Source of the DNA: Hypomesus transpacificus | Taxonomy: Eukaryota > Chordata > Actinopteri > Osmeriformes > Osmeridae | Length of the DNA stretch: 64,000 nt | Assembly: GCF_021917145.1 (NCBI RefSeq) | Contig: NC_061080.1 | Location: forward strand, 2,647,497 to 2,711,496 | Direction: 5' to 3' | In this document: in pieces, positions 1-34,900 of the stretch | How positions within the stretch are numbered: the first letter of the stretch is position 1 | How the letters are laid out: every line of letters starts with the position of its first letter | Program-made: the position numbers and the translations under genes | The notes under the pieces: generated by a model | The model's database searches: none | What the model saw: the letters and a program-made list of their open reading frames with translations, nothing else | Told to the model about the DNA's origin: nothing

Positions 1-1357
1 CAACAGTGCTTTTTTTTATTGATTTATGTTTGATTTTGGATTCAAAAAGGTGTCTCTTTTTCCTCTCTGTGAGACGTTTTGTGTGATGGTGGTTGTTTGT
101 TTCTTTAAGGTTTTTATTGTGTGACAACCTGAATTGGAATGCCCGGTAGTGGTTTCAGAGTCATGGTTTGGTTTGATTTTGAGGAATGATATTTGCATCC
201 CCCCATCCTTTCTTCCTTTCTTTCTTTCTTTCTTTCTTTCTCTCCTTTCTTTCTCTTTCTTGTTCTTTCTCTTCCATCAATCTTTATTTCTCTCCCTCTC
301 ATCCCTCTCTCCAATCTTGCTCATGTATTGTTAGAACCGATAGTAGGCAAATAGTCAAATGTTTTTTTTATTTGTTGTGTGTTTGTTACGCATCTTGGTG
401 TTCTTTTATGTCGTCAGTTTGTCCATGAGAAGAATTGCACATGTGGATGGATTGTTCACTTTCTCTCTCTCTCTTTCTCCCTTTCCCACCATCGTTTATG
501 TGTTCCCGTGTCTTTCAATGTGGACTGGCTCTTCTTTCCTGCATCCCTCTTGATCTCTCTCTGTTTCTCTCCTTCCCCCTACTCTCTCTTTGTATGGCGT
601 GTATTTGATTGGGAGGGCTGCCCAAATGTTTTTTTTATTTTTATTGGTCTATATGCTGCATCTGATGCTTGCTGATTGGCTGGTTTGGCTCACCTCTGGT
701 CATGTGATGCGCTCTTGGTTGGCTGTGTGTAATTTGTGTATGATCTCTTCAAGTGATGACTTTTTAATTTTGCATCGTGTTCAACAGATGAATCTTGCTG
801 CTTACGTCACCCTCTCTTTCCCCCTTTTTTGAAGGTAGCAATGGAATGGTCTTGGATTTACTTTGGAATGCCTAAATCTGAAATGTTTTTGTTTCTTTTG
901 TTGTGTGTACGTGGTCCAAGTGTGTGTGTGTGTGTGTGTGTGTTGCAAAGCGGACTGAATACTCACAAGGATTCTTTCTTTTATATGTCATTTTTTCCTT
1001 AAAAAATGCATGTATCAAATGCCATCGCTCTGCATCAGTAGAATTAACCTCTTGATGACCTCTAAACGCTACTGTAATTTTTTCGATATTCGTACGACAC
1101 ATTCAGAACAACAAAACTGTAGTTGTGGATAAAAAGATGCCAAGATGACTTTTGTATAACAGCTTGAAAACATTAATTTGTGAAGATTTGGTTTTCGATG
1201 GAATGTAATCTCCAGCAGTAGATAACTTCAAGAAAACAAATAGTGTATCTTGTGAATTTGGAGCATAGGAACACAGTGTGCATGGACATGTGTACCTCCC
1301 TCGAACTGTGTGAGCGTAGGTCATGTATTCACCTTTGACCTTCCCTCTGATGCTCAG
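1..1357 (+). other. rbfox2: rbfox2 intron (window starts inside the gene)
   Basis: No coding exon is supported here. The stretch is pyrimidine-rich, with TTTC and CT runs at about 208-300 and 455-590 and a GT run at about 920-940. The next exon starts at 1358 after a TGCTCAG acceptor. TGCATG lies at 1007 and 1279. The short open frames here are low-complexity and match nothing I recognise. Confidence 0.6.
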
Positions 1358-2139
1358 GTCAACAATGCCACAGCCAGGGTGATGACCAATAAGAAGATGG
1401 TCACCCCATATTCAAATGGAGAAGGACTTGCTGCCCTTCCTTATGGTAACATACGGCTACCTTGATTGATTTATAAAGAACCTTATAGTGTACATCCCGT
1501 GTATTTGCAGTGTTTGAGTTACATAATAGTCCAGCACACTACCATGACATAACATATATCAGTTTACAGTAGCTGTAGCTATCTCACAGGCATTGTATCA
1601 TTGCCGTCTTACACTTGTCTGTGTACCAAAAGGAATGTGCTGGTAATTTGTTAAGTAATGTGTTAGTAATTGTATGTTTTTTGGGTCCCTATAGCTGGTT
1701 GGAAGCTCAGTCCAATGGTTGGGGCCATGTACAGTCCAGAGCTGTACACTGGTAAGATGTAAAATCATACGTTGCATGGCTAAATTGATTTGTTTTGTTT
1801 AAGATTTTTAAAGCTAATTTTCTTTGCACTAGCTGTGTTGGATTGCATTGGTCACTAAAGCTTGTAGTATGTTTGGTAGCGTTGTCAATCATAAAGAAAT
1901 TATAATTTCAAACTAAGTTGTCAGCAAGCTTCGTTAGCTCAGTTAGCTTAGCCTAATAAGCTAGCACAACTAGCTAGTTTTATTAGGCTCCTTGAGGGTT
2001 TAGGTTGGTTGAGGTTCCATGGGCGTATGTGAAGCCCCCTGTGACATGTAAAAAGCGCTATACAAATGCATTTGATTAGATTTTAGCTAATTAATTAGCA
2101 AACATTGTTTTCAAAGTGCAAGTCTTCCACTAACCCTTT

Positions 2140-2213
<74 letters not shown>

Positions 2214-5200
2214 GCCAGGATTTCCCTACCCTGCGGCGGCTGCAGCTGCGTCCTCGGCAGCGGCGGCGGCAACCTTCCGGGGTGCTCACCTCCGGGGACG
2301 TGGCCGACCGGTGTACAGTGCTGTGAGGGCAGCCGTACCCCAGCCCGCCATCCCCACCTACCCTGGGTAAGAGAGGCTATAGAAACACAGACACACACAT
2401 GGGCAAATTGCACATATACATGCTCAAACACGCGTGCACACACGGTAGTTGAACACGTTCATTATACGCACCTAGGGGATGGGTATAGATCAGTGGTGGA
2501 GCATTTACCTGTAGATAGGTCCCAGATTCAATCCTCCCCTAGTATGTTGCGTTGTGAATACATTATACATATTCAAAAGAATCATGCACACAGATATTGT
2601 AAGTGAAGACACACATATTTTACTCAGGCATGCTCCCACAATCTAAAAAGTGTTCAACCAATGATGCATGTGCTTGAGAGTGCTGTTTTAGTCATGATTG
2701 TCATCTCAAATCAATTCAGTTTATATTGTGCCACATTGAAATACCATTTCGTTGTGCTCTTCAGTAGTATCTCAGTAGTGCTAAATGTTGTTGACACAAA
2801 TACATAGAAATAATACAAGTACATATGTGTCACCACAGGCTTAATCACAGTGATAATAGCACTGACGAAGTGGTATTTTCTATCTTGCATGCTGCACGGA
2901 GTGTAATATTCTCGCACCCTAATCTTCTCTCTTGTCCACTCCCTTTGGCACCCTTTCTATCCTGCTCCTTTGTTCCCGTTTTGTTCTTTCGTTCTCCCCG
3001 TTCTGGTCACCTGGTGGCGCTCCTCTCCCATCTTCTGTACTCATCCCGTTTCCCGACCACTCCTTTTCTCTCTCTTTCGTTTTCCGTCCACCCTGTACTT
3101 CCATCCCTTTCCCCCCCCCCCCCCCTTTTTCTTATTTCTTCTCTCAGTGTGATGTATCAGGATGGCTTTTACGGTGCAGCCGACCTCTATGTAAGTATAG
3201 CTCTCTCCTTTGTTTCTGTCACTCACTCCCCTCCTTTCCCCCACCTCCGTCTGTGAGTGTTTCTCAAGTGAGGAGGAGTGTTTGTGCATGGACCCAATCC
3301 ATAGAGCCGTGTAATTGTGGGTGTAATAGTAACCAACGCACACGCGATCTACTGTTAAATTCATCCGATGACTTACTCTAAACATGGAATTACATGAACC
3401 AAGGAAACGCACTCAAGTAGTCTAGATTTCCATGCATGCCCTGTTGAGTTAGCAATAGTGTGCGCACACACATACACACACGCACCTCCACTGATCCGAG
3501 TCCTATACATTCATGAATAGACTGCTCTATGTGTGGTTTGTCTCTGTGCATGTGAGTGGCGAGTGGTGCGTGTGTATACCGTTATGTGTGTGAGAGCGTG
3601 TGCGACCAGGTTGACAATAGCTGTTTCTGTTCTTTCTGTAGACTAGTGTTTCAGGACATTAGTGGCAGATTGCCCCAGGTAGGGATTGACTGTGTGAAAG
3701 CCAGTGTGCATCCTACAATGACTGTGTGCTGCTAGTATATTGACCATCTGAGATTGAAATGCCTTCTCTGTCTCTACTACTAACTCACTGGAATCTGACA
3801 TGGGTGGAGTTGCGGAAGGGGGGAATTATTTAAATATTCTTTATTGACATATCACCATCCGTGAATGAAAAGGAAAGAAAATGTGATTTGTATAGGAAAT
3901 GAAGTCCAACTTAAACGGATAAATAAAGATGATAAACAAATTATATTTAGTTTCAGATTTTAAATGAAATTATAGTAATTGAGAGCTTGTACCATTACCT
4001 AAGGAAACTCTTATTTGTAGCTGAGTTATGACTTGAAAGGGTTAGGGTTAGGGGTTCCAAACCCTAACCCTAGGGTTCCTAACCCTAACCCGAACTATTA
4101 CAGGGTATTGTAAAACAAATATCAGATGTCATACAACATGGCCAGACAATGGCACAGTGGCTTCATCACTTTAAGTGTGAAAATCTGATCATTATTATTG
4201 TGACTGTCCATTAGTCCAAAAGCTTAGTTTGCTAGTAATAATAATAGCATATTAGCAGACACTTTTACCCAAAGTGGCGTATAGTATAGGGGCAGATTTG
4301 AACCTGCAACCTCTTGATCAGCAGTTAAATGAAATGTAAATGCTCAAACCACTGAGCTGTACCCCCCCCCCCCCTATTAACTGAGATTGTTTTTACAAAA
4401 AACATGCCATAACAAGTTAGGGTCAAAAATGTTAACTACACATTGAATATATTATTTACTTTTTTTCAGTACTTTTGACATTCAGACCCCTTCCCGGTAT
4501 CTCCCTGTATCTGTTTCACTTGTGGCATGCTAACTGAATCAATGTGGGCATGCTGACACACTTATACCCTCCCCCCCCCCCCCCTCTTCTCCTCCCACTC
4601 CTTCTCCTACCTTCTTTTTTTTCTGACTCCTGTAGAAGCTCTTTTGACAATGTCAGCCCCCTCTACATCCCCCTCCACACCTCCCCGGGGTGACAACCTC
4701 TTTTATTGAGATTTTTCACCGTTTTTTCGAAAAAGAAAAATATTATTATATTTACTATTCATCCCCAACATCAACTCATCCAGTCCAATTTTCCACTCAC
4801 TCCCCCCTTGTCCATCAATCTTCTACTCCCCCTTTTTACTCGACCTCTCCCTCCATCCATCCTCCCGTCAGTTTCTATGCCCATCTATCCCCTTCCTTTT
4901 TGCTGTCTTCTCACTTCCTACTTCCTGTCCCTTGACCCCACCCCCTCCCCATAGGAGCAGGTGTGTGCTCCTGAATGCTGGGACATGGTCATGACTGATT
5001 GTCTAGGGTAGAATGCAGTGGTGTGTGTGTGTTTCGTAGGGATGTTTTGCCTACGATCCGAGTTTGGGATGCATGCTGTCCGTCAGTGATTGGTTGTTGG
5101 CCATGTCACGTGTGTGCGTCCTTTTAATCGGATTGGCTGATCGTCTCTCGTGTGCCCTCCCCCCCCCCCCCCTTAGTTTGTGTGTCTGTCCGTTTCTGCA

Positions 5201-6188
5201 CATGAAATAAACAATGACCCCAATTATCACGTCATCCCCCCTTTTTCCTTGACTTGTGTGTTGTGTCTTAGGGGCCAGGGGGGTTCACAGCCAAGTCTGT
5301 GCACACTTTCGCTACCTATCTCCATTATGTCTCTCCCTCCACGTCAACCAAAATGCTAACAGACCTGAAGCTGAACAGATATTTCAGTCAAACTTAGACA
5401 AACACCCTGGTGGTGTATTTACGATCCCAAGGCATCCGGTTTTGTTTAGCGTGGAGGAAGACCCACAGGGTGGACAGCCCTTAGCTACATCCCTTTGAAT
5501 GCCATTTTTGCATACCAGATTAGCCTTTGTTGCCAGTCTTGCTTGTTAATCTCTAGCTCTTTTCCGCTTCCCACTTTCACTGTAACATCCCTAGCTTCGG
5601 TAGGTGACACTGCAACCTTCACTCACGACTTTTCTCTCTCTTTCGCTCCCCACCCTTCTCTCTCCGCCCTTCCCCTCCTCCAGGGAGGCTACGCCGCGTA
5701 TCGCTACGCCCAGCCAACCGCCGTAGCCACGCCCACGGCGGCTGCGGCGGCCGCCGCTGCTGCAGCCTACAGTGATAGGTGAGCGCTCGGGCCCGAGCTT
5801 AAAAGGAGCCGGCTGTAGGATATAATTAATTGCATGTACCCTTCCAGTTGCTTGAACAAAACAAAAAAAAGGGAAATATTGCGATGCTCGCAGTATCGAG
5901 CGTGTGGTGTTACGGTTGTGTGAGGTTTTGCTCTGTCTTCTATAGCTATGGACGGGTGTACACGACAGACCCCTACCACGCTGCACTAACCCCAGCCACG
6001 GCTGCTGCCTACGGGGTGGGAGCAATGGTAAACTCCCTTCTATCTACTGACACTTGGGATATCTTCTCCATCTTTTGAGGACATATGTGTTTGTGATATT
6101 TCTCGGCGTCCATTAAACGTATTCTGTTCTTTCTTTTCCACAGGCCACGCTGTACAGGGGAGGCTACAGTAGATTTGCCCCTTACTAA
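1358..6188 (+). CDS. rbfox2: RBFOX2 splicing regulator, C-terminal exons (5' end outside window)
   Basis: RBFOX proteins bind UGCAUG in pre-mRNA and control alternative splicing; the RRM lies upstream of this window. Exons: 1358-1445, 1695-1751, 2213-2366, 3148-3190 (43 nt), 5684-5778, 5946-6027 and 6144-6188, ending in TAA. An alternative 37-nt exon lies at 3642-3678. Phases join without a break. Family blocks seen are [70 protein letters not shown] and the end [11 protein letters not shown]. The alanine run before AYSD and the short [19 protein letters not shown] tail fit RBFOX2 better than RBFOX1 or RBFOX3, as does tom1 in the same window. The first exon carries an extra segment, GEGLAALPY, before the WKLSP block. 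The exon at 2213 has a pure CT microsatellite as its pyrimidine tract. Confidence 0.93.
1990..2085 (+). repeat. Dispersed fish repeat, LINE/SINE 3'-tail type
   Basis: The stretch runs from GGTTGGTTGAGG through GTGAAGCCCCCTGTGACAT to an AAGCGCTATACAAATGCATT-type tail. A related copy lies at about 50985-51065 in best2 (GTGAAGCCCTCTGTGACAT). The 'gctatacaaat' ending is typical of fish LINE-mobilised tails. The family was not identified. Confidence 0.5.
2143..2210 (+). repeat. (CT)n microsatellite forming a splice-acceptor pyrimidine tract
   Basis: About 34 uninterrupted CT units end directly at the AG before the rbfox2 exon at 2213, so the repeat itself is the polypyrimidine tract. Confidence 0.95.
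2475..2570 (+). repeat. tRNA-derived SINE fragment
   Basis: An A-box-like stretch (TAGATCAGTGGTGGAGCA, 2485-2502) and a B-box-like stretch (GGTCCCAGATTCAATCC, 2518-2534) are spaced as in a tRNA head. No intact tRNA cloverleaf is claimed. Confidence 0.5.
3642..3678 (+). CDS. rbfox2: rbfox2 alternative exon, brain-type (B40-like), 37 nt
   Basis: A clean mini-exon lies between a TTCTTTCTGTAG acceptor and CAG|GTAGGG. Read from the GG left by exon 2213-2366, it encodes [12 protein letters not shown] and ends in phase 0, exactly as the 43-nt exon at 3148 does. It therefore also joins the [10 protein letters not shown] exon at 5684. The mammalian RBFOX B40 exon encodes a VYQEPVYGNKLLQ-type segment in this position as an alternative to the 43-nt muscle exon. 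The likeness (V.QD..G.L.Q) and the phase suggest this is its fish counterpart, shortened by one codon. Including both exons would break the frame, so mutually exclusive use is expected. Confidence 0.6.
4039..4091. repeat. Interstitial telomere-like repeats in inverted orientation
   Basis: GGGTTAGGGTTAGGGG is followed within a few bases by ACCCTAACCCTAGGG and then TAACCCTAACCC. Both strands of the vertebrate telomere hexamer thus sit head to head and could form a hairpin. Confidence 0.75.
4235..4366 (-). repeat. tRNA-derived SINE fragment (minus strand)
   Basis: Read on the minus strand, GGTACAGCTCAGTGG resembles an A box, and GGTTGCAGGTTCAAATCTG resembles a B box. A C-tract follows at 4362-4374 on the plus strand. 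Confidence 0.5.
4636..4689 (+). other. Possible cryptic or relict rbfox2 exon (54 nt)
   Basis: The stretch is flanked by CTCCTGTAG and GGG|GTGACA. Joined after two upstream bases it reads [18 protein letters not shown], faintly like the alternative RBFOX segment containing SSFQ and YIPLIIPG. It lies downstream of the expected place, and its phase does not fit exons 3148 or 5684 (phase 0 would put TGA in frame). Treat it as an unproven, possibly dead exon. Confidence 0.2.
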
Positions 6189-17760: not shown

Positions 17761-20700
17761 ATGTTCCCGGCCTTATTTCTCTCCTTGCTCGTCTACACGG
17801 CTGTCGCGGAAGACAAAGGTAAGATTTGGGGAATTGGGATATTGTTGTCATGGGATGACTTCTGATATTCACCTCTCCTCTATCTTCCTCTCTCGCTCTT
17901 TTTCTCCATTTCTCCCGCCACAGACGGCGCCCTCCCTAGGCTGGGTGACGTCGGGGCAGCCGAGGCCTTCATTGACTCGGCTGAAGTCGTGGTCGTTGGG
18001 TTCTTTGAGGTCAGTCGGGGAAACGAGCGTGGGGAGAGAGAGACGACGGAGGGGATAGAGAGGACGCTAGAAATGTGTTCCGTAGGCCGACTTGAGGTCG
18101 GGAGCACGGGAAGGAGACACAACCACAGTGACCGTTAGCATGTGGCTAGGCTATCCAGCATTCCTAAGCAGCCATCCCGTAAGACCGTTGCTAGAGAGCC
18201 CTAGTTTTTGATGCTTTCAAGCTTTTTGGGAGGGCTGTTTCCTGTTGCCACACATTGGGCCAAGGGAGGGCCTTCCTGTCGGTGTGGTGTGGTGACAAGG
18301 GAAGAGAAGGCAGACGGTCGTTCTGGCGTGCCGATCCCTTTGGCCAGACTCCGTGTGCGGGGGAAGATGGCGGGCCCGCTGGACAGTTAGCCGGGGTCGC
18401 ATATGTGGAATTGTGGGATTGGCACGTCAATGGGGGCAGTAAACAAGCGTAAACAGAGAGAGCAGTCGATGGGAGAAGAGAGAGTGGAAGGAGAGAGCCT
18501 GGGAGGTTGAAGGGTTGAACTGTAATGTTGAGGACAGTTCAATGTCTAAATGACTCACTAGGAAGGAATGCATATAATATGGTAAAAAAGGAAAACATAC
18601 TTTTAAGGCACATGCTAGTGTAATGTCAGGATAGGTTTTCATCCTGAATACACCGGTCTACCAGCTTGCCTTTTCTCATCGTTTTATTTCTTTCACATTC
18701 CAGCTACTTTTCTCTCTCATGAAAATCACATTCTCATTCTGTCTATTAGGGGGAGGACAGTCATGGCTATAAGGAGTTTGTGGAGGCTGCTAAGGAGGTG
18801 AAGCCCATTCCTGTGGCGGTGTGTGGTGAGAAGGAAGTGTGGGCTAACCTCAGCATCGTCTCTGACACCATCACCATATTCCGGAAGGTAACCTCTTTGA
18901 CCATATATGCCTCACTCTGAAAATCCTGACATTTTAAAAAACAACATTTAAAACCACAATGAAAAACTTGTGTACTCACCCAAAAAATATGTATCTGTGT
19001 GTGTGTTCAGGCTGATAACCACCAGGAGAACCTGCAGCTTTCAGAAGCCAAGAAGATAGAAACTGACGGTTTAGTCCGCTTCATCACAGTCAATGAGCTT
19101 CGCTACATCACTGAATACAACCAAGTGGTAAGCCCTGCGCTCCCTCTATTCACAGCACACCTGGCTCCGCCCAGAAGGTCTCACCTAGAGTTAAATCAAA
19201 TGCACCCTCAAATATATTTGACCTAGCTTTTTGTCAATTTACTACTGCAATCTGGCAGGCCTGTTGTTGGCTTTCACGGAACAAAAATCATGAAATACCT
19301 TCTATCCTTCTACAAATAGCGTTTGGCACTTTTTAAACGACTGACATTTTCTCTTTGCCATCCTATGTACTTCATCTCAACCTCTCTTTCTCCCTCCACC
19401 TCCCCACCCCTCTCCATTCAGACGGCAGTGGGTCTCTTCAACTCAGACGTCAAGACGCACCTCCTGCTCTTCACCAGCAGGGGGAGTGATGACTATACTG
19501 TGCTCAAGGACCGAATGGGGGCCCTGGCCCCAGAATTCACCGGCAAGGTGATTCCAAATGAGCCCTCCAGTACACCACTGCTCTGGATCTATTCTATTTT
19601 CAACTGTATATAGATGTTAGGCTTATGAACCTTTTACGAACCTACTTGATACAACTGAATCATGTTTGGTTAAATCATGCTATTTGTAAAAGATCCTGTA
19701 AAGTGGAATTGAAAATGAGTTTGCAGTTCATCACATCACAGAAGAATGTGTTGTTAATTACCCATCCAAATTTGAATGAAAAAAAAAACATAGACAAGTT
19801 TTAAATTAGGCTTTGAAATTGTGAGAAAATCATCAGTCTTCTCTGCTGGAGATGTGGGCGTGGGGGCCTTGAGGGCGTGTCACCTGATGGAGCTGAAGCT
19901 CCGCCCCCTTGAATTTATTGAATTTAGCAACAACAGCAACACTAGCTAAATCAATTGCAGATATCAGAACATACCTACCTGCAGTCCCTGCAGTTGTGTT
20001 TTATATATCAATTACTTTGTCTTTGCATCGTACCAGCTGAGTAACAGAATGCAACCGTCTGTGATCTGACATAGATAGGTCGCTGTGACGTAGATGGGTC
20101 GGGTTTTGGCCCCGCCTATACAAAACCTGAGCTGAAAACGGAAAAGAAACAGTTCAACGGTCTAACTCCACATTTCAGTGCGACAAAGTTTTCTCGCTTT
20201 GCACATGCTTTCATGAACTCATTTCACACTTATATAATGTACTGAGAAGCAAATCATAGAATTTGCTTTACAGGATCTTTAATCTTTCGAGAGTGTGCTT
20301 ATTCAGTCTCATAATTGTAATTAGAAATGTATGAAGTGGAGTTACATTGATTTCAGCCTGTTATTACTGTAATTACTGGTCAAATTACAAATTGCTCCTG
20401 AGTTATCCTAGTTGTTGACTCGATTGCAGTTCTTATTTGTGCTGATCAACGGAGCGGTGAAGGCCAACGAGCGATCGCTGGGTTACTTTGGTCTGAAGTC
20501 AGGTGACCTGCCCCGGGTCGGCATCTATGATGGCGACTCGGACATGAAGTGGCTCCTGCCCGAAGGGGAGATCTCTACAGAGCGTGTGCGGGAGTTCTGC
20601 CAGTCCTTCCTCCGAGGAGATCTAAAGGTGAGAGGTCGCTGAAGGCATCAAGGTCACTGAGTCACCAGAATAATAAAAAAAAAGAAGCTAATATCTAAAG

Positions 20701-20899: not shown

Positions 20900-22340
20900 A
20901 GGGGACCTTCTTGGCTGACTTGTGTGTTGTTTTCTGCGTGCTTGTCCAAGCATGTGTCTGCGGTTTCTGGTCATTCTGATGCTGGCATTGTCTCTTTACC
21001 ATTCTGCTGATCCAATGGTCAAGACCACAACTGGCAGGCTGCAAAAGACTGACCCAGAGGAGAAGCAAGTCTAGGATGAGGAGCGGAGAGGAAGAGATGA
21101 AGAGGAGAGGCTATCTTGAGTAGGAACGAAAGAAGGAGATTCTCAGAATGACATTGTCTAGACAGCACATGCATCCAGTGAACTCGTCTGGCATGGCCAG
21201 GTCTGGTTTAGAATAAGATGAAACTGGATTGAGTAGAATGGGACAGAATAGAAAGACTAAAACACAGTGGAACATTTTACCTAGAGGAGCTGATTAGAAA
21301 AGTAGTAGACTGAGAAAGTGTGCAAAATCAACTCTCACACATGAACACACTGGCACACAGTTCAACAAGAGAACCATGTTAAAGTGAGAGTACAGGCAAT
21401 CGGGAGTCTATAAAAGATCCAAAAGAGAGAAACAGATGGTCTCAAAGCTGCATCAAATATAAAAACCAGAAGTGAGAGAAACTTTTAGCGTCAATCCCTG
21501 AAAAATTCCCCAGAAAGAGAAGGGAATTTCAAGGCCCAGACTGAAATCGGGATAATTAGTAGTGTTGGAATGCCAAGCGGAAACATCAGCCGGTATAGGG
21601 AAAACATTGCCTGGCAGCTGGACTTTTTATACACAAACCAGATATATATATTTTTTTTTTGTTGTATAAATATTTTGATGCAAATGTATGTGTTTGTGGT
21701 GGTGTACTGTAATTAAAGTTTGGATAACATTGGAAAAAAACCTTTAAGGTTGATGGTGAGAATTGACATTGGTGTGTCTCCCCTTAAGGACGTTATCATT
21801 GTCTCCGTTCGCTCAGAGAAACGGTCAAATCGACACATTTCAAATCAAGTATCCACATTTAGGCATTGTCCCTTTTTCATAAAAAATGTGCTGCCCAAAA
21901 AGCACAGTTTTTGTTAAGGCATTTTGGAATCTGAAGGCCCATATCGCTCCTTGTGACACCGGGGTGTGATCAGTCTCGGAAGGTATAGGCTATACGTTTA
22001 CATTTACGCATTTATCAGACGCTTTTATCCAAAGCAACTTCCAAGAGAGAACTTTACAAAAGAGCATCACTGATCATAACAACGGTAGCCCCAAACATTG
22101 CAACCAGCCAAAACATGAAGCATATTGTGAAAAAAACAAATAAGTGCCAAAGGGAAGAACCATAAGCGCATGCAGTTAAACTAATACATATTATTAGAGT
22201 TTAGATGTTCTTCTTATTTCTGTTTAACTGGCAGATTGCAACCAACACTGAGAGGTAAAGTACCTACTACATTTCTGATCCTTAATCACATCTGTGATCA
22301 CATTGATTGGTAACATGTGCGATTAATTAGTTAGGCTTAC
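20900..22340. other. Spacer between erp27 and the repeat-protein gene
   Basis: No gene seen. The only recognisable piece is a dispersed fish repeat at about 21990-22160, starting TTTACATTTACGCATTTATC and AGACGCTTTTATCCAAAGCA, a common SINE-tail-like sequence. The rest looks unique and AT-rich. Confidence 0.5.
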
Positions 22341-22360: not shown

Positions 22361-22370
22361 TATTTAAAAG
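22361..22370 (+). promoter_or_regulatory. TATA-like element of the repeat-protein gene
   Basis: TATTTAAAAG lies 90 bp upstream of the proposed ATG (22460). A start about 30 bp downstream would give a short 5' UTR. A small upstream ATG at 22394 opens a frame of about 15 codons, if it is transcribed. Confidence 0.4.
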
Positions 22371-22459: not shown

Positions 22460-24185
22460 ATGGTTGTGGATTTTGCAATATGTCTAAAGTGAGTTTATAA
22501 CATGATACATTTCTATGGTGTCTGTTGGTGGGATTTCATCTAACTAGTCTTGTCTTTTTAGTTTTTTTTTGATGGGTTGTCTGCTGGTTGGAGCTGCTGT
22601 CTGTGCTCCTGTATTCCAAGGTACTTATTTTGTTGGTGGGTAGAACCCATTACTTTCAGTAGAATCCATTTATTTGAGTCAAGATCAACAGTTTGCCTTT
22701 CAACTTGCTTATGTTTCTCTTTCCACAGGTGACTCTGGTAACTCAATGGGAAAAGTCTTCCCTGGATCCAGCCCCCGACTCGTTGCATCACAGAAGCAGA
22801 CTGAGAAGCCCATCAGCAACAAGGTCACTCAGAAACTGTCTAACCCAAGGGGCTTGAAGCATGGTAACGGCATCTTTGGACTTGCAAGGAACAGCAAATC
22901 ACCATTCCTGTCCAGTCAGTACATGAAACCCTCATCTAACTCGGGTAATGCCTTCCTGTCACATAAGAGTGTTAAACTACCGCAAGCTGGTCAGTCCACT
23001 CACTTTGATTTTAATGTTGAAGTGAAAAAGCTTGTGGATAACTGTGAGAGGGGTGACTCATCTGGCTGCGACATGGGCACTGAGAACGGCGTCGGGGTCA
23101 GCTGCAGTGACCCATCCGGGTGCGACTTGGACACTGACGACAGCGGTGGGGTCAGTTGCAGTGATCAATCTGGGTGTGACTCGGACACTGACGACAGCGG
23201 TGGGGTCAGTTGCAGTGACCAATCCGGGTGTGACTCGGACACTGACGACAGCGGCGGGGTCAGCTGCAGTGACCCATCCGGGTGTGACTCGGACACAGAC
23301 AACAGCGGTGGGGTCAGTTGCAGTGACCAATCTGGGTGTGACTCGGACACTGACGACAGCGGTGGGGTCAGCTGCAGTGACCCATCCGGGTGTGACTCGG
23401 ACACAGACAACAGCGGTGGAATCAGCTGCAGTGACCCATCCGGGTGTGACTCGGACACTGACGACAGCGGCGGGGTCAGCTGCAGTGACCCATCCGGGTG
23501 TGACTCGGACACTGACGACAGCGGCGGGGTCAGCTGCAGTGACCCATCCGGGTGTGACTCGGACACTGACGACAGCGGCGGGGTCAGCTGCTGTGACCCA
23601 TCCGGGTGTGACTCGGACACAGACAACAGCGGTGGGGTCAGTTGCAGTGACCAATCTGGGTGTGACTCGGACAATGACGACAGCGGTGGGGTCAGCTGCA
23701 GTGACCCATCCGGGTGTGACTCGGACACAGACAACAGCGGTGGAAACAGCTGCAGTGACCCATCCGGGTGCAGTACGGACTCTGAAAACGGCGGCGGGGT
23801 CAGCTGCAGTGACCCATCCGGGTGCGACTTGGACACTGATGACAGTGGCAGGTTCAGCTGCAGTGACCTATCCGGGTGCAGTACAGACTCTGAAAGCGGT
23901 GGGGTCAGCTGCAGTGACTCATCTAGCTGCAGTAAGGACACTGGTGGCACAAGCATCAGCAACGAGAGCACTGGAACTGACAGCGGCAGTAGGGAGTACC
24001 ATCCGGATAGTGGTGCTGAGGCCTCTCAAGAAACCACAGGCCCAAGGACACGCCCCTTCTCAAATGTCCGCGCCAAGTACCGCACCAAGTACCGCAGAAG
24101 AGAATTTGTTTCCTCCCAAAAGCAATATACCCCTGGGGAGTTCAAAACCCATCGTGGCCATAACCCCTTCTTGGTGTACTGGTGA
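22460..24185 (+). CDS. Unrecognised secreted Cys/Asp/Ser tandem-repeat protein
   Basis: I do not recognise this protein. Exons: 22460-22488, 22562-22620 and 22729-24185 (TGA), in phases 2 and 1, giving about 515 aa. A 3' UTR intron (donor GAG|GTGAGT at about 24200) leads to a last exon with AATAAA at 24335. The spliced N-terminus MVVDFAICLNFFLMGCLLVG followed by AAVCAPVFQ is a clear signal peptide that only appears after splicing. A basic, Ser/Lys-rich region of about 100 residues follows. Next come about 16 copies of an 18-residue unit, consensus DPSGCDSDTDDSGGVSCS (23055-23915), each with two cysteines and four to five aspartates. The tail is basic and aromatic (RAKYRTKYRRREF ... RGHNPFLVYW). 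The charge pattern suggests an extracellular Ca-binding or matrix protein. Introns are not phase 0, which argues against the SCPP family. It lies between erp27 and osteocalcin. Confidence 0.75.
23055..23915 (+). repeat. 54-bp minisatellite encoding about 16 copies of an 18-aa unit
   Basis: The unit is 54 bp, in frame throughout. Inner copies differ only at a few places (Pro/Gln at position 2, Asp/Asn at position 11). Outer copies (first one, last three) are more diverged, the pattern expected of unequal exchange. One copy lacks a codon, and one has SCC instead of SCS. Confidence 0.95.
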
Positions 24186-24345
24186 CACTAGACCAGAGGT
24201 GAGTCTTTAACTGGCTGACATCTGTGGAAAGACATTTCCATTAGATAAGTTTCCATTGTGTTCCTAATCATTGCTTTATTGTTTGTTTCAGGTTTTCCTT
24301 CAAACTTGTAAGGTGGAACATGTTCAACTTGACCAATAAATGCTC
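24186..24345 (+). other. 3' UTR of the repeat-protein gene with a UTR intron
   Basis: After TGA, GAG|GTGAGT (about 24200) and a TTTGTTTCAG acceptor (about 24291) mark an intron in the 3' UTR. AATAAA lies at 24335-24340. Confidence 0.55.
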
Positions 24346-26021: not shown

Positions 26022-26165
26022 GGCCGGGTTTCCCAGATTCGTTAAGAAGCTCTTAACGCTCAGAGCTTCTAAGGAGCGTTCTAAGAGCGTTCTAGAGTGT
26101 TCTTAGAACGCTCCTAAGAAGCTCTAAGCGTTAAGAGCTTCTTAACGAATCTGGGAAACCCGGCC
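26022..26165. mobile_element. 144-bp near-perfect palindrome, MITE-like
   Basis: The left arm begins GGCCGGGTTTCCCAGATTCG and continues TTAAGAAGCTCTTAACGCT. The right arm is its reverse complement, ending CGAATCTGGGAAACCCGGCC. The centre (about 26070-26115) is also largely self-complementary (GAGCGTTCTAAG / CTTAGAACGCTC). The whole element could fold into one hairpin. Confidence 0.85.
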
Positions 26166-28692: not shown

Positions 28693-29991
28693 ATGAAGAC
28701 TCTGTCCCTGCTGTCTCTCTGCGCTGCCCTGTCAGTATCCTGGTCCACTTGGGGTATGAAAACTCAACAACCTTTTACAACCTTCCTTTCTATTCCTGTC
28801 AATGTACACAAACACAACCCTATTTAATAGTTACTAATACAACTCATGTTATGGTGTATTGAAACATGTATGTACTTCGTTATGATATCATGTGCTGTAT
28901 CCATGGGTTGTTTGGTGAGTTTGTGACTGTGATCTACAGATGTAGTCCTCGACCCCGCAGCTGTTGTTACACCTGAGCCCACACCCGCTGTGGACACTTC
29001 CTCTGCCTCGGACTCCTCCTCATCTTCATCCTCATCCTCGGAGTCTGACTCGGCTTCCTCATCGGCGTCTGACTCTGCCTCATCATCGGCGTCTGACTCT
29101 TCTGCCTCAGACTCTTCTTCCTCTTCTTCCTCCTCTTCCTCGGAGTCAGCTGGAGCCAGCACTGAGGGTATGTGTGTGTGTGTGTTCTGGCTCTGGTCAA
29201 TATCTGTGAGAGGGTTCATATGCATTTGTGTGCGTGTACTACACAATCTATAAACCTTAAGAAAGGGGAAGTGAAAAGTTTACACCTGTGTACTTGAAGA
29301 GGAAGGAAAACAGCGTTCACAGTTGAGGTAGTCGCTGTTTGGGGTCGTAAAGACAAACCGTGTAATCAAGTGTGTGTGTGTGGCTCGGGTGTGTTTTCCC
29401 TCAGCTCCTGAAGTGCTCATGAAGAGAGACCTGGCCTCCATCTTGTTGAGGAAGAGGAGGGCCGCCCCCGCCACCCCTGCAGGCCCAGCAGCCCTCACCC
29501 CCCTGCAGCTGGAGAGGTAACACACATTAACCCTCACGCATGGCCTTCTGGGAAAGATCTATCTACCATGGGGCCTTTTCTGAGATGTAGAAGCCTAAAT
29601 TAGTCCTTTAACAACCATATGGGTGTCACTGGTTATGAGGCGGTTGTTGCAGTGTGCTGGCGCAATGGCGCTTAGAGGGAAGGCGGTACGGTTAATGGCT
29701 TCCGCAGCTGCCACATGAGGTCAAATGTTGTCTGAGTTGTCTTTGCGTGCCCAACGTAACATGTACAAGCAGTACAGTCTTGGAGTTTGGCTTCAAACCT
29801 GTGGATTGTAAAATGCAGAACATTTAATGATATCAGCGATTTCCTCTGAGTTATTTTTGAGTCTCCCTCTCTCTCTCTGCCCACTTAGCCTAAGTGAGGT
29901 GTGCGAGCTGAATGTGGCGTGCGATGACATGGCCGACACCGAAGGCATCGTTGCAGCATACACCGCTTACTACGGACCCGTCCCCTTCTAA
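28693..29991 (+). CDS. bglap: Osteocalcin (bone Gla protein), fish OC2 type with Ser/Asp-rich propeptide
   Basis: Osteocalcin is a secreted bone-matrix protein that binds Ca and hydroxyapatite through gamma-carboxyglutamates. Exons: 28693-28753, 28940-29167, 29405-29516 and 29889-29991 (TAA), phases 1, 1 and 2, giving 167 aa. Signal peptide [20 protein letters not shown]. Exon 2 encodes a long Ser/Asp/Glu-rich stretch of about 50 residues. Exon 3 carries the carboxylase recognition region ([16 protein letters not shown]) and the RKRR furin site. The mature part has the three Gla positions and both cysteines ([19 protein letters not shown]) and ends [10 protein letters not shown]. Most osteocalcins lack the acidic Ser expansion; it matches the OC2 form described from some fishes. 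Next to erp27 it sits where mammals have the paralogue MGP. Confidence 0.95.
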
Positions 29992-31947: not shown

Positions 31948-34900
31948 TGTGAAATGTGAGTTAGGCAAAGGGAAGGAGAGCGTAAGGGGGTTGGGAGTGA
32001 GTGGGAGGGTGTGTGCAGGGAGGGAGTAGGAGGGAGAGAAGGAGAATTAGAGAAGTATAAAGGCTAAATCAGGGGCCTATTGAGTGCAGAGGGGGAGTGC
32101 AGACGCTGGCAGTAATCACAAGGCACCTCAGCTTTAGTTGGACTTGAAAAATAAGACTGATTATTCAATGGTAATCCAATCAAGCAATAACAGTGATTGT
32201 GTGTGAACTAAATGCATAATTCAAACACCAAGACAGTCCTTCTACAAGTTCCAAAACATTTTCAGTTAAGAGAGAAGAAAAGAGAATATATTATTTTCAT
32301 GACGTTTCCGTCATGGAATTCCATGTTACATTTCCAATGTATTCATATCAGTGATTCATATGTAGGCCTTGTTGCCACATTTGGGATCCCCATGAAATGA
32401 TCATTACCGTATGGCCAGGAACCTGGTGTTGTGAAAGGTTAATAAATGGCCTTCTGAGTCTCCACATTGGTTGTCTGCTCTCCCTGTCCTAAGTGTGTGT
32501 CATGGGTTGTTGACAGAGCGAGCCACCAGCGGAGCACTGCAGTCAGAAGACTGGGGCCTCAATATGGAGATCTGTGACATCATCAACGAGACGGACGAGG
32601 GGTATGGAGGTCTTCGTTGTTATGGATCGTTTGCGACTGCCATTTTCCAATTACTGCCGCGTCACTCTCCACGTCAAACAGCTAGACGACGCCGATAACT
32701 ATCAGGAGAATAGAACAGGGGCATTGATTTCACTCAGACTGACGTCCAATGTCTTCCACCTTTTGTTGTGTTGTTGCCTTTGACCCCAGACCCAAGGATG
32801 CCGCCAAAGCCATAAAGAGGAAGATCGTGGGCAACAAGAACTTCAGAGAGATCATGTTGGCGCTGACCGTGAGTGGACCTCTCTTTCATTTGGTTTGGTC
32901 CATATCTCACTTTCCCACTTCTGTCCACTTATTGAAGCTACAGAGTGTGTCTTTAATTTGGGCTGAGACCCTGATAGCGCTTGTTTTCCCAATACCCCTC
33001 CCCTTTTTTTACCTTGGTTTTAAAAAGGTTCTGGAAGCGTGCGTGAAGAACTGCGGCCACCGGTTCCACGTTCTGGTGGCGTCTCAGGAGTTTGTGGAGG
33101 GAGTTCTAGTCCGTTCCATCCTTCCCAAGTACAACCCACCCACAGCTCTACACGACCGAGTACTGAGCCTTATACAGGTGTGAGATTCAGACATGTTGCT
33201 TTACGAGAGGTGCTAGGTACACCCACAGGTACCGAGTGCTGAAAACTCCTTGGTGTTAAGCCTTACGGTGCGTGTCCACTACAGCGGAGCGGAGCGTCGG
33301 CTTCCAATCCATTTTCAATAAAACCGGGCGTTGACGCTGGTGTAGGGCATTGTGGGAGCGTACGCGAGCATCAACACACGTTTTAAAAAAAAAATGGATT
33401 GGAAGCCGACGCTCCGCGCCGCTCCGCTTCGCTGTAGTGGACACGCACTGTTATGTAAGTGGAACAAGTGTCATTGTTGTTGCTCGTCGGTATTGCTTTG
33501 TCGCTCACTCGGGGGATCGAACTCGGGTCGCCTAACTCGTGCACGCGTTGACCTCCTTTCATAAACACTCCTTTAAATAGCTACGCCACCGAAAAGCTAG
33601 ACATTTGTGAGTGGGCGGTATTTATACTAAGGAGTGAGTTTAACTAATTCAACTCTGTTATATAAATATAAGCGTGTGCTACAGAAATACATCATTCTCA
33701 ATACCATACCGTACATGGTCGTACGGGAAACTCACTTTTGAACCATCAAGAGGTTTCGATGGCGACCATCCATCAGTGTCACCCCAAATGAAGTGCTTCT
33801 CCAGTTTTGTTGCCTGTTTACCCTTTGTCATGAGTTCAGTTTCCATGCACAATGTCTGTTCGATCGGTAATTTGACAGCAGACAACTACTAGCCTCCTCG
33901 TTCATTTTGCAATAATAAGATGACTTGTTGCAGTCAATGACTTCATGTCACCTCCAGCCCACTCTGTCCAAATGGCCCATTAGATTTAATGGATAAATTG
34001 GGCAGAATGACAACATGGTTAACATACCACTTTTCTGAATGGGACAAAGCCTTTGTGTCAATTTCTTTCATAATGTCAACGGGTTTCAAAAGGTCTCACT
34101 CTCATTTCATTTCCATTTTCTGCTCTCTATTCGTCTACCTGTCTCCCTGTCGCATTCCGTTTCGTTTCTCTCGGTCTCCCTCCGTATCCACACGCTTTCT
34201 CTTTTTCTCTCCTCCTCTCTGACTATCCTGCTCTTTTGTTTTCCCATCCCTACACACTTCCCTCTCCTCTCCTCTCTCTCTTCTTTCCCTCCTCCCTCTC
34301 TTTCCTCCCTTCCCTCCCAGGCGTGGGCGGACGCCTTCCGGAACTCTCCCTCCCTGGCAGGGGTGGTGGGCGTGTACGAGGACCTGAAGAGGCGGGGCCT
34401 GGAGTTTCCCATGACAGACCTGGATGCCCTGTCGCCCATACACACACCCAACCGAGTGAGCCCGAGACGCATCCGTGCACATGGGGTGGATCGCACCCGC
34501 GCTATGTCTTCCATTCTTTCCCTCCTCCCTCCCTCCTAATATTTCAATCGAAATGACGTTGTCTCGTCTTTCTAGAGCATTCCAGAGAACGGCACGGACG
34601 TAAGCGTGGCTGCTCCTTGTGCTGAAGCTCAGATGCACGCTGCTGCGTCGACATCCACCTCTGCGTCTCCCAGGAGTGCCCCTAGCCAGAGTGCTTTACT
34701 TGCACAGCCTAGCGAGGGGCCTGTGTTCATCCCTGCCGAACAGGTACTGTTGCTCCTAGACAGACCTGTCAATCACCCTGTGATCGTTACATTTGACGTT
34801 GTCCATAGCCCAGTGAATGACTATTCCTGGCCGTGTTCCACTTGGAAGTGTTCAAAAATGCTGATTAGCTCCTCTGCACTTCTAGCATGTTTAAACACAG

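Follow-up and report, generated by a model that had tools for sequence, protein, structure and literature searches.

Secreted egg polyproteins built of short, acidic units in tandem that vary from one species to the next are a known pattern, and the teleost egg repeat glycoproteins, hyosophorin and the salmonid polysialoglycoprotein, are commonly described as secreted, acidic and N-glycosylated, with short tandem units varying by gene and species. Acidic Ser/Asp-rich secreted stretches are also typical of the SIBLING and SCPP proteins, in which the phosphorylation motif S-x-E is enriched and, to our knowledge, all coding introns are in phase 0; dense cysteine is unusual among acidic mineral proteins. 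Hyosophorin is a proteolysed cortical-alveolus polyprotein according to the accessible part of its description (PMC12753239), and the available portions of two further reports describe the Oc2 propeptide as serine-rich and acidic (PMC3517302) and the adjacency of teleost bgp1b to erp27 as a known linkage (PMC8006282). The gene analysed here, referred to as copy A, lies between an erp27-like exon and a bglap gene of the bgp1b/OC2 type in Hypomesus transpacificus, in a window (the whole stretch of DNA that was analysed, 64,000 nucleotides) at C21:2647497-2711496 of a genome of 437 Mb in 376 contigs. Based on reading and Pfam, the window contains, in this order, rbfox2-like exons (about 1-6000, by eye), the erp27-like exon, copy A, bglap, a VHS-domain gene (tom1-like) and bestrophin. 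Two paralogues, copies B and C, are located outside the window on the same contig. The features of copy A and its nearest neighbours are the following:

20412..20642, forward strand: erp27-like exon (the frame around it), a neighbour outside the family; Thioredoxin_6, E 4.4e-12, the name erp27 given by reading
22361..22369, forward strand: TATA-like element TATTTAAAA of copy A, by reading; unchanged in copies B and C in the alignment
22460..22488, forward strand: coding exon 1 (MVVDFAICL plus 2 bases), ending in phase 2; donor GTGAGT in copies A and B, GTTAGT in copy C
22562..22620, forward strand: coding exon 2 with the remainder of the signal peptide, ending in phase 1; open frame in three of three copies
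22729..23096, forward strand: first part of exon 3, with the basic Ser/Lys N-domain and the linker; aa 30-107 used for the A-B site comparison
23097..23906, forward strand: array of 15 tandem 54-bp units, consensus VSCSDPSGCDSDTDDSGG, two cysteines per unit
23907..24185, forward strand: degenerate last unit, basic C-domain ending RGHNPFLVYW, and stop codon; copy B 88% identical
24199..24291, forward strand: 3'UTR intron, by reading, starting 13 nt past the stop codon; GT/AG also in copy B
24335..24340, forward strand: AATAAA poly(A) signal, also in copy B
28693..29991, forward strand: bglap, bgp1b/OC2 type, four exons, a neighbour outside the family; spliced, with the Gla motif ExxxExC

An earlier note, made from the letters of this DNA, had proposed a three-exon gene with a signal peptide created by splicing, a TATA-like element, a UTR intron and a poly(A) signal. 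Exons 22460-22488, 22562-22620 and 22729-24185 (29 + 59 + 1457 coding bases, exon 3 ending at 24185) join in frame, exactly to the base, to a protein of 514 amino acids, whose spliced start (MVVDFAICLNFFLMGCLLVGAAVCA) reads by eye like a signal peptide; the promoter element, the UTR intron and the poly(A) signal are present in copy A and were found again in copy B. Copy A is a real gene, and the three-exon model is confirmed. Open-frame length was rejected as evidence of coding because more than one frame of the array stays open: two forward frames are free of stops and two reverse frames contain one stop each, so that the length of the open array frame proves nothing. Within the N-domain of copy A, the coding frame alone is stop-free among the six frames. 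Among the units of copy A, 32 of 66 changes from the consensus are silent, or 13 of 31 once recurrent changes are reduced to one each, where about 24% would be expected; the excess among distinct changes has p = 0.02, or 0.05 under a stronger transition bias. The coding frame is therefore supported by the stop-free N-domain, by the paralogues and by the silent changes between units.

The predicted protein carries its charges in the order plus, minus, plus. The basic Ser/Lys region described in the earlier note corresponds to an N-domain (aa 30-135) of net charge +10 and pI 10.2, and the basic tail to aa 441-514 (net +5, pI 9.9); between them lies an acidic region (aa 136-440) with a net charge of -70 and 34 cysteines. 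The corresponding charges in copy B are +13, -54 and +5. Both cysteines are kept in 15 of 15 in-register 18-residue units of copy A, as had been read, and the count of 'about 16' copies is fair, since degenerate units flank the 15 in-register ones (TRF, 15.4 copies of 54 bp). In total, there are 38 cysteines in copy A and 35 in copy B, each count including three in the signal peptide. Dibasic sites flank the array on both sides in both copies, and each has a single N-glycosylation sequon, located outside the 15 units in copy A and within one variant unit in copy B. An RGD at aa 137-139 of copy A is absent from copies B and C.

Copy A is a member of a local three-gene family, in which the arrays of copies A and B consist mostly of different units. 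Copy B (C21:2602400-2599772, reverse strand) encodes 815 amino acids and is located 68 kb from copy A, and copy C (C21:2608353-2607699, reverse strand) encodes 157 amino acids at a distance of 62 kb. The alignment common to all three comprises the TATA-like promoter, the donors and acceptors, both coding introns, which are in phases 2 and 1 throughout, and the signal peptide, and the basic N-domain is retained in each copy; between A and B the alignment also covers the C-domain, the 3'UTR intron and the AATAAA. The array of copy B starts with three 18-residue units of the VSCNDPDGCRTDSEDSVG type and continues as a long array of units of about 27 residues (GTSTSSDRGSAVSFESGDPSSCGKDTG type), which, judged by their sequence, seem to have arisen by expansion from the degenerate last unit that copy A still has. 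Copy C extends little beyond the first cysteines that follow the signal peptide. As the array varies from 15 units in A to three units and another unit type in B and a short remainder in C, it is the ends that define the family, while the Cys/Asp array is its fast-changing part; the two-cysteine unit, prominent in copy A (15) and minor in copy B (three), is not family-defining. We conclude that this is a real, unstudied, fast-changing family of secreted proteins and that the two-cysteine unit represents one of the states which a fluid array can take.

Searches of the genome yielded the following matches among the best candidates scored. With the 18-residue unit, 26 matches reached E<=10, seven of them in A or B (six of these below 1e-8) and 16 with E of 0.05 and above; the three on C2 (E 6e-4 to 0.004) were rejected upon reading of loci L021 and L022 as a minisatellite. 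With the C-domain, five matches reached E<=10, those to A and B being strong and three being weak (E 3.2 to 6.0), of which the one at locus L014 was discarded as a repeat on reading; no C-domain was found for copy C in this search.

Between copies A and B, the two ends have changed mostly at silent sites. Over aa 30-107, differences occupy 2 of 179 nonsynonymous sites and 4 of 55 synonymous ones (Fisher p 0.03); the corresponding figures for the C-domain are 7 of 154.5 nonsynonymous and 6 of 43.5 synonymous sites (dN 0.047, dS 0.152; Fisher p 0.04), the counts being small in both domains. Comparisons of aa 30-107 with copy C gave no clear silent bias (dN 0.028 and dS 0.038 for A-C, dN 0.017 and dS 0.038 for B-C). 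Two other parts of the protein have changed fast between A and B, namely the signal peptide, at dN 0.152 and dS 0.048, and the linker, at dN 0.302 and dS 0.214. Gene conversion may contribute to the likeness of A and B, since intron 2 is similar between the copies too, differing by 4.6% between A and B and by 6.5% between B and C. Copies B and C have an upstream flank in common and differ by 5.8% in the promoter and by 1.4% in intron 1, compared to 8.2-15.6% to A. As promoter and intron 1, though not intron 2, are closer between B and C than to A, these two copies look like the result of a later duplication with some exchange between copies. Copy C may represent a short protein or a decayed copy. 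The surroundings of B and C contain repeated segments, namely the alike upstream flanks and a duplicated 87-residue frame, which occurs both behind and upstream of copy C (C21:2606751-2607011 and 2610814-2611074; L005:6751-7011 and L006:814-1074) and is equal over the 70 residues compared.

As far as tested, the gene is undescribed, as had been claimed: full-length copy A has no Pfam or PDB sequence match at E<=10, and a literature search found nothing on it. For the earlier note, a hit of the non-repeat ends to a known family would speak against its reading, and this objection is partly borne out: the ends probably relate, judged by profile matches, to Pfam DUF1373 (PF07117; 145 profile positions, curated cut-off 28.9 bits). 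When aa 1-157 and 745-815 of copy B are combined into a repeat-less composite, the result matches DUF1373 above the cut-off (32.3 bits, E 2.7e-7, profile positions 2-143) and has no match in NCBIfam. Below the cut-off are the composite of A (23.3 bits), native full-length copy C (23.4 bits), and the N-terminal pieces of A and B together with whole C (E 8.9e-5 to 2e-4); native full-length A is unmatched. The match of the N-domain was first taken as real and was dropped after a shuffle control, in which the native signal peptide of B followed by a shuffled remainder still reached 15.2-23.8 bits in four of four cases (reversed, 0). The N-terminal half of the match thus reflects signal peptide and composition, as shuffled sequences still match. 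The signal peptide of A alone scores 12.5 bits (E 0.34), the bglap signal peptide joined to one shuffled stretch does not match, and neither does the mature N-domain of A or B alone. At the other end, the C-domain of B alone gives 16.7 bits (E 0.018, below the cut-off, profile positions 122-143), with a match in none of eight shuffles, and the mature composite of B lacking the signal peptide gives 11.5 bits (E 0.71), its match lying in the C-terminal stretch; no match was obtained with the C-domain of A alone. The independent indication of a relation to DUF1373 is accordingly weak and consists of this C-terminal match of copy B. In a search of the whole genome with the profile, the two matches at E<=10 were copies B (0.06) and A (0.44), both across exon 2, intron 2 and exon 3 and neither above the cut-off. 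In copy B, the signal peptide aligns to one end of the profile and 22 C-terminal residues to the other, in the right order, whereas the long Cys/Asp array appears, from the profile length of 145 positions, to have no counterpart in DUF1373. The domain was described from medaka, which in itself points to no tissue. The literature consulted lent no support to the notion that medaka ovary cDNAs (osp1) fall within DUF1373, and this notion is not counted as evidence; no papers were found under DUF1373, PF07117 or IPR009803.

The position beside a bone Gla gene, another point of the earlier note, proved correct: the two genes share a strand, and 4.5 kb separate the end of copy A from bglap downstream. 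The second exon of bglap (window 28940-29167) encodes a long Ser/Asp/Ala run as in the description of the Oc2 propeptide. Its motif ExxxExC is what we take as the basis for regarding bglap as osteocalcin; Pfam yielded no Gla match for the spliced bglap protein at E<=0.1, so that the identification rests on reading and motif, and Pfam, having missed bglap's own Gla domain, is no test for Gla membership. Copy B is at a distance of 74 kb from bglap and copy C of 68 kb. A trefoil/ZP-N/ZP-C gene, extending to at least C21:2632.4 kb, is situated between copies C and A; three of the nine pieces scanned gave Pfam matches (E 1.8e-8, 5.3e-9 and 7.4e-9), and the layout is one which we take to be that of the egg-coat proteins ZP1/ZP4. 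A likely 5' part, starting at C21:2625.8 kb, was joined by eye and has a sub-threshold ZP1/ZP4 match (E 0.0014). The stretch from C21:2625818 to at least 2632394 (L007:5818 to L008:2394, forward strand) contains Pro-rich repeats TQRQGPQTFPTYPVPSPV along with trefoil, ZP-N and ZP-C, in one gene or more.

A secreted, acidic, cysteine-containing repeat protein beside a bgp1b/OC2-type Gla gene is supported by these findings. With modest preference over a bone protein, we tentatively propose, at a probability of about 0.4, that it is a secreted egg matrix protein in which an acidic cysteine array and basic ends form a cross-linked gel in the oocyte or egg. The protein would be exported into an extracellular matrix or a vesicle store, where the array, with a charge of about -70, would hold Ca2+, other cations and water, and the 34 array cysteines would form disulfides within units and between molecules. 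The basic ends might bind acidic arrays or glycoproteins electrostatically, so that the secreted material would set as a cross-linked gel, most likely in cortical alveoli, the perivitelline space or the egg envelope. Array length and unit would be loosely constrained and turned over by unequal exchange, and the ends would carry the recognition function. Consistent with such a gel are two paralogues of the same gene structure, ends in which silent changes are favoured between A and B while the array is replaced, the charge layout of both copies, the conservation of both cysteines in every in-register unit, the trefoil-ZP gene between the copies and the probable relation of the ends to DUF1373. 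However, the ZP neighbour is one gene, picked after the fact; AlphaFold gave no confident fold, and the fast change of signal peptide and linker also speaks against the proposal. Copy A, with its one sequon outside the 15 units, is furthermore unlike the N-glycosylated egg repeat proteins, and an excess of S-x-E in copy B would also fit a phosphoprotein.

This excess belongs to the alternative implied by the neighbourhood, and in line with the earlier note's mention of mineral-associated proteins, that the family encodes a mineral-associated matrix protein expressed together with osteocalcin, whose Asp/Ser array would bind Ca2+ and hydroxyapatite; we consider this rather unlikely. Adjacency to bglap on the same strand, the serine-rich, acidic propeptide of bgp1b/OC2 (in the accessible part of PMC3517302) and the S-x-E count of copy B (27 against a shuffle mean of 8.9, reached in 0 of 2000 shuffles) speak for it; for copy A, support for a mineral role does not go beyond the neighbour bglap. 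The count of copy B derives from one homogenised unit, and its sites are therefore not many independent events, while copy A shows no excess (3, shuffle mean 2.5); the values elsewhere are 0 against 0.4 for copy C and 3 against 2.5 for bglap. Dense cysteine and coding introns in phases 2 and 1 also set the family apart from SIBLING/SCPP proteins, its members lie on both sides of the egg-coat-type gene, copies B and C being far from bglap, and the motif ExxxExC, present in bglap, is absent from A, B and C. By the features tested, the family is neither SCPP nor a Gla protein.

A recent, lineage-specific duplicate family of little function with drifting minisatellites, copy C representing decay, is less probable again. 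It would account for the truncation of copy C to 157 amino acids with no C-domain found, for the fast signal peptide and linker and for the N-domain comparisons with copy C, but A and B keep open frames, splice sites and promoter, and changes in their N- and C-domains favour silent sites. Hardly different in probability is a hyosophorin-type cortical-alveolus polyprotein with an array cut into glycopeptide units at fertilisation. The dibasic sites on both sides of the array in A and B would suit such cutting, and secreted egg polyproteins of this general pattern are known; yet each copy has a single sequon, and two cysteines per unit are not known as a hyosophorin feature. The least probable reading is that a disulfide-linked array belongs to an antimicrobial precursor or to a secreted barrier or mucus protein of skin, gut or gill; the signal-peptide-like start and the basic flanks with dibasic sites are its points of support.

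To return to the proposed egg matrix protein, the structure of copy A was modelled with AlphaFold. A 484-residue model was low throughout (pLDDT 41.9), and among five models of eight units, built with the array's own shifted units, the best was beta-solenoid-like (pLDDT 67.2), the others reaching 48.1 to 29.5; repeat sequences often give models of this kind. Foldseek returned no significant match, the VIA rows being beta-helices of several unrelated kinds; neither antifreeze beta-helices nor RTX rolls were among the matches listed, an absence that is no exclusion. It might be speculated, at long odds, that the array folds into a beta-solenoid of 18 residues per coil that is stapled by disulfides and binds cations, having been inserted into a small family of secreted egg proteins and exchanged for another array in the sister gene; we know of no rod of such a kind from vertebrates.

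The family clearly illustrates how a secreted protein can retain both ends and yet, in a sister gene, carry other repeats in place of its centre, and it does so in a setting that combines a bone Gla gene and an egg-coat-type gene. This genuine, unstudied fish gene may be one of the egg and not of bone. Expression in the egg would make its product a new type of cysteine-rich egg matrix protein and might allow a function to be assigned to DUF1373, whose role is listed as unknown; expression in bone would run counter to the pattern of acidic mineral proteins avoiding cysteine.

Further repeats were observed around these genes. A short SINE-looking stretch (TTTTATCCAAAGC.ACTTCCAAGAGAGA) is located upstream of copy A (window 22000-22060), and a similar one behind copy C (L005:7250-7330). 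A palindrome of two 72-nt arms (93% complementary, no spacer) at window 26022-26165 may be a mobile element, e.g. a MITE, and inverted repeats at window 33265-33451 (arms of 33-35 nt, 91-97% complementary) lie just behind a VHS exon and are probably intronic.
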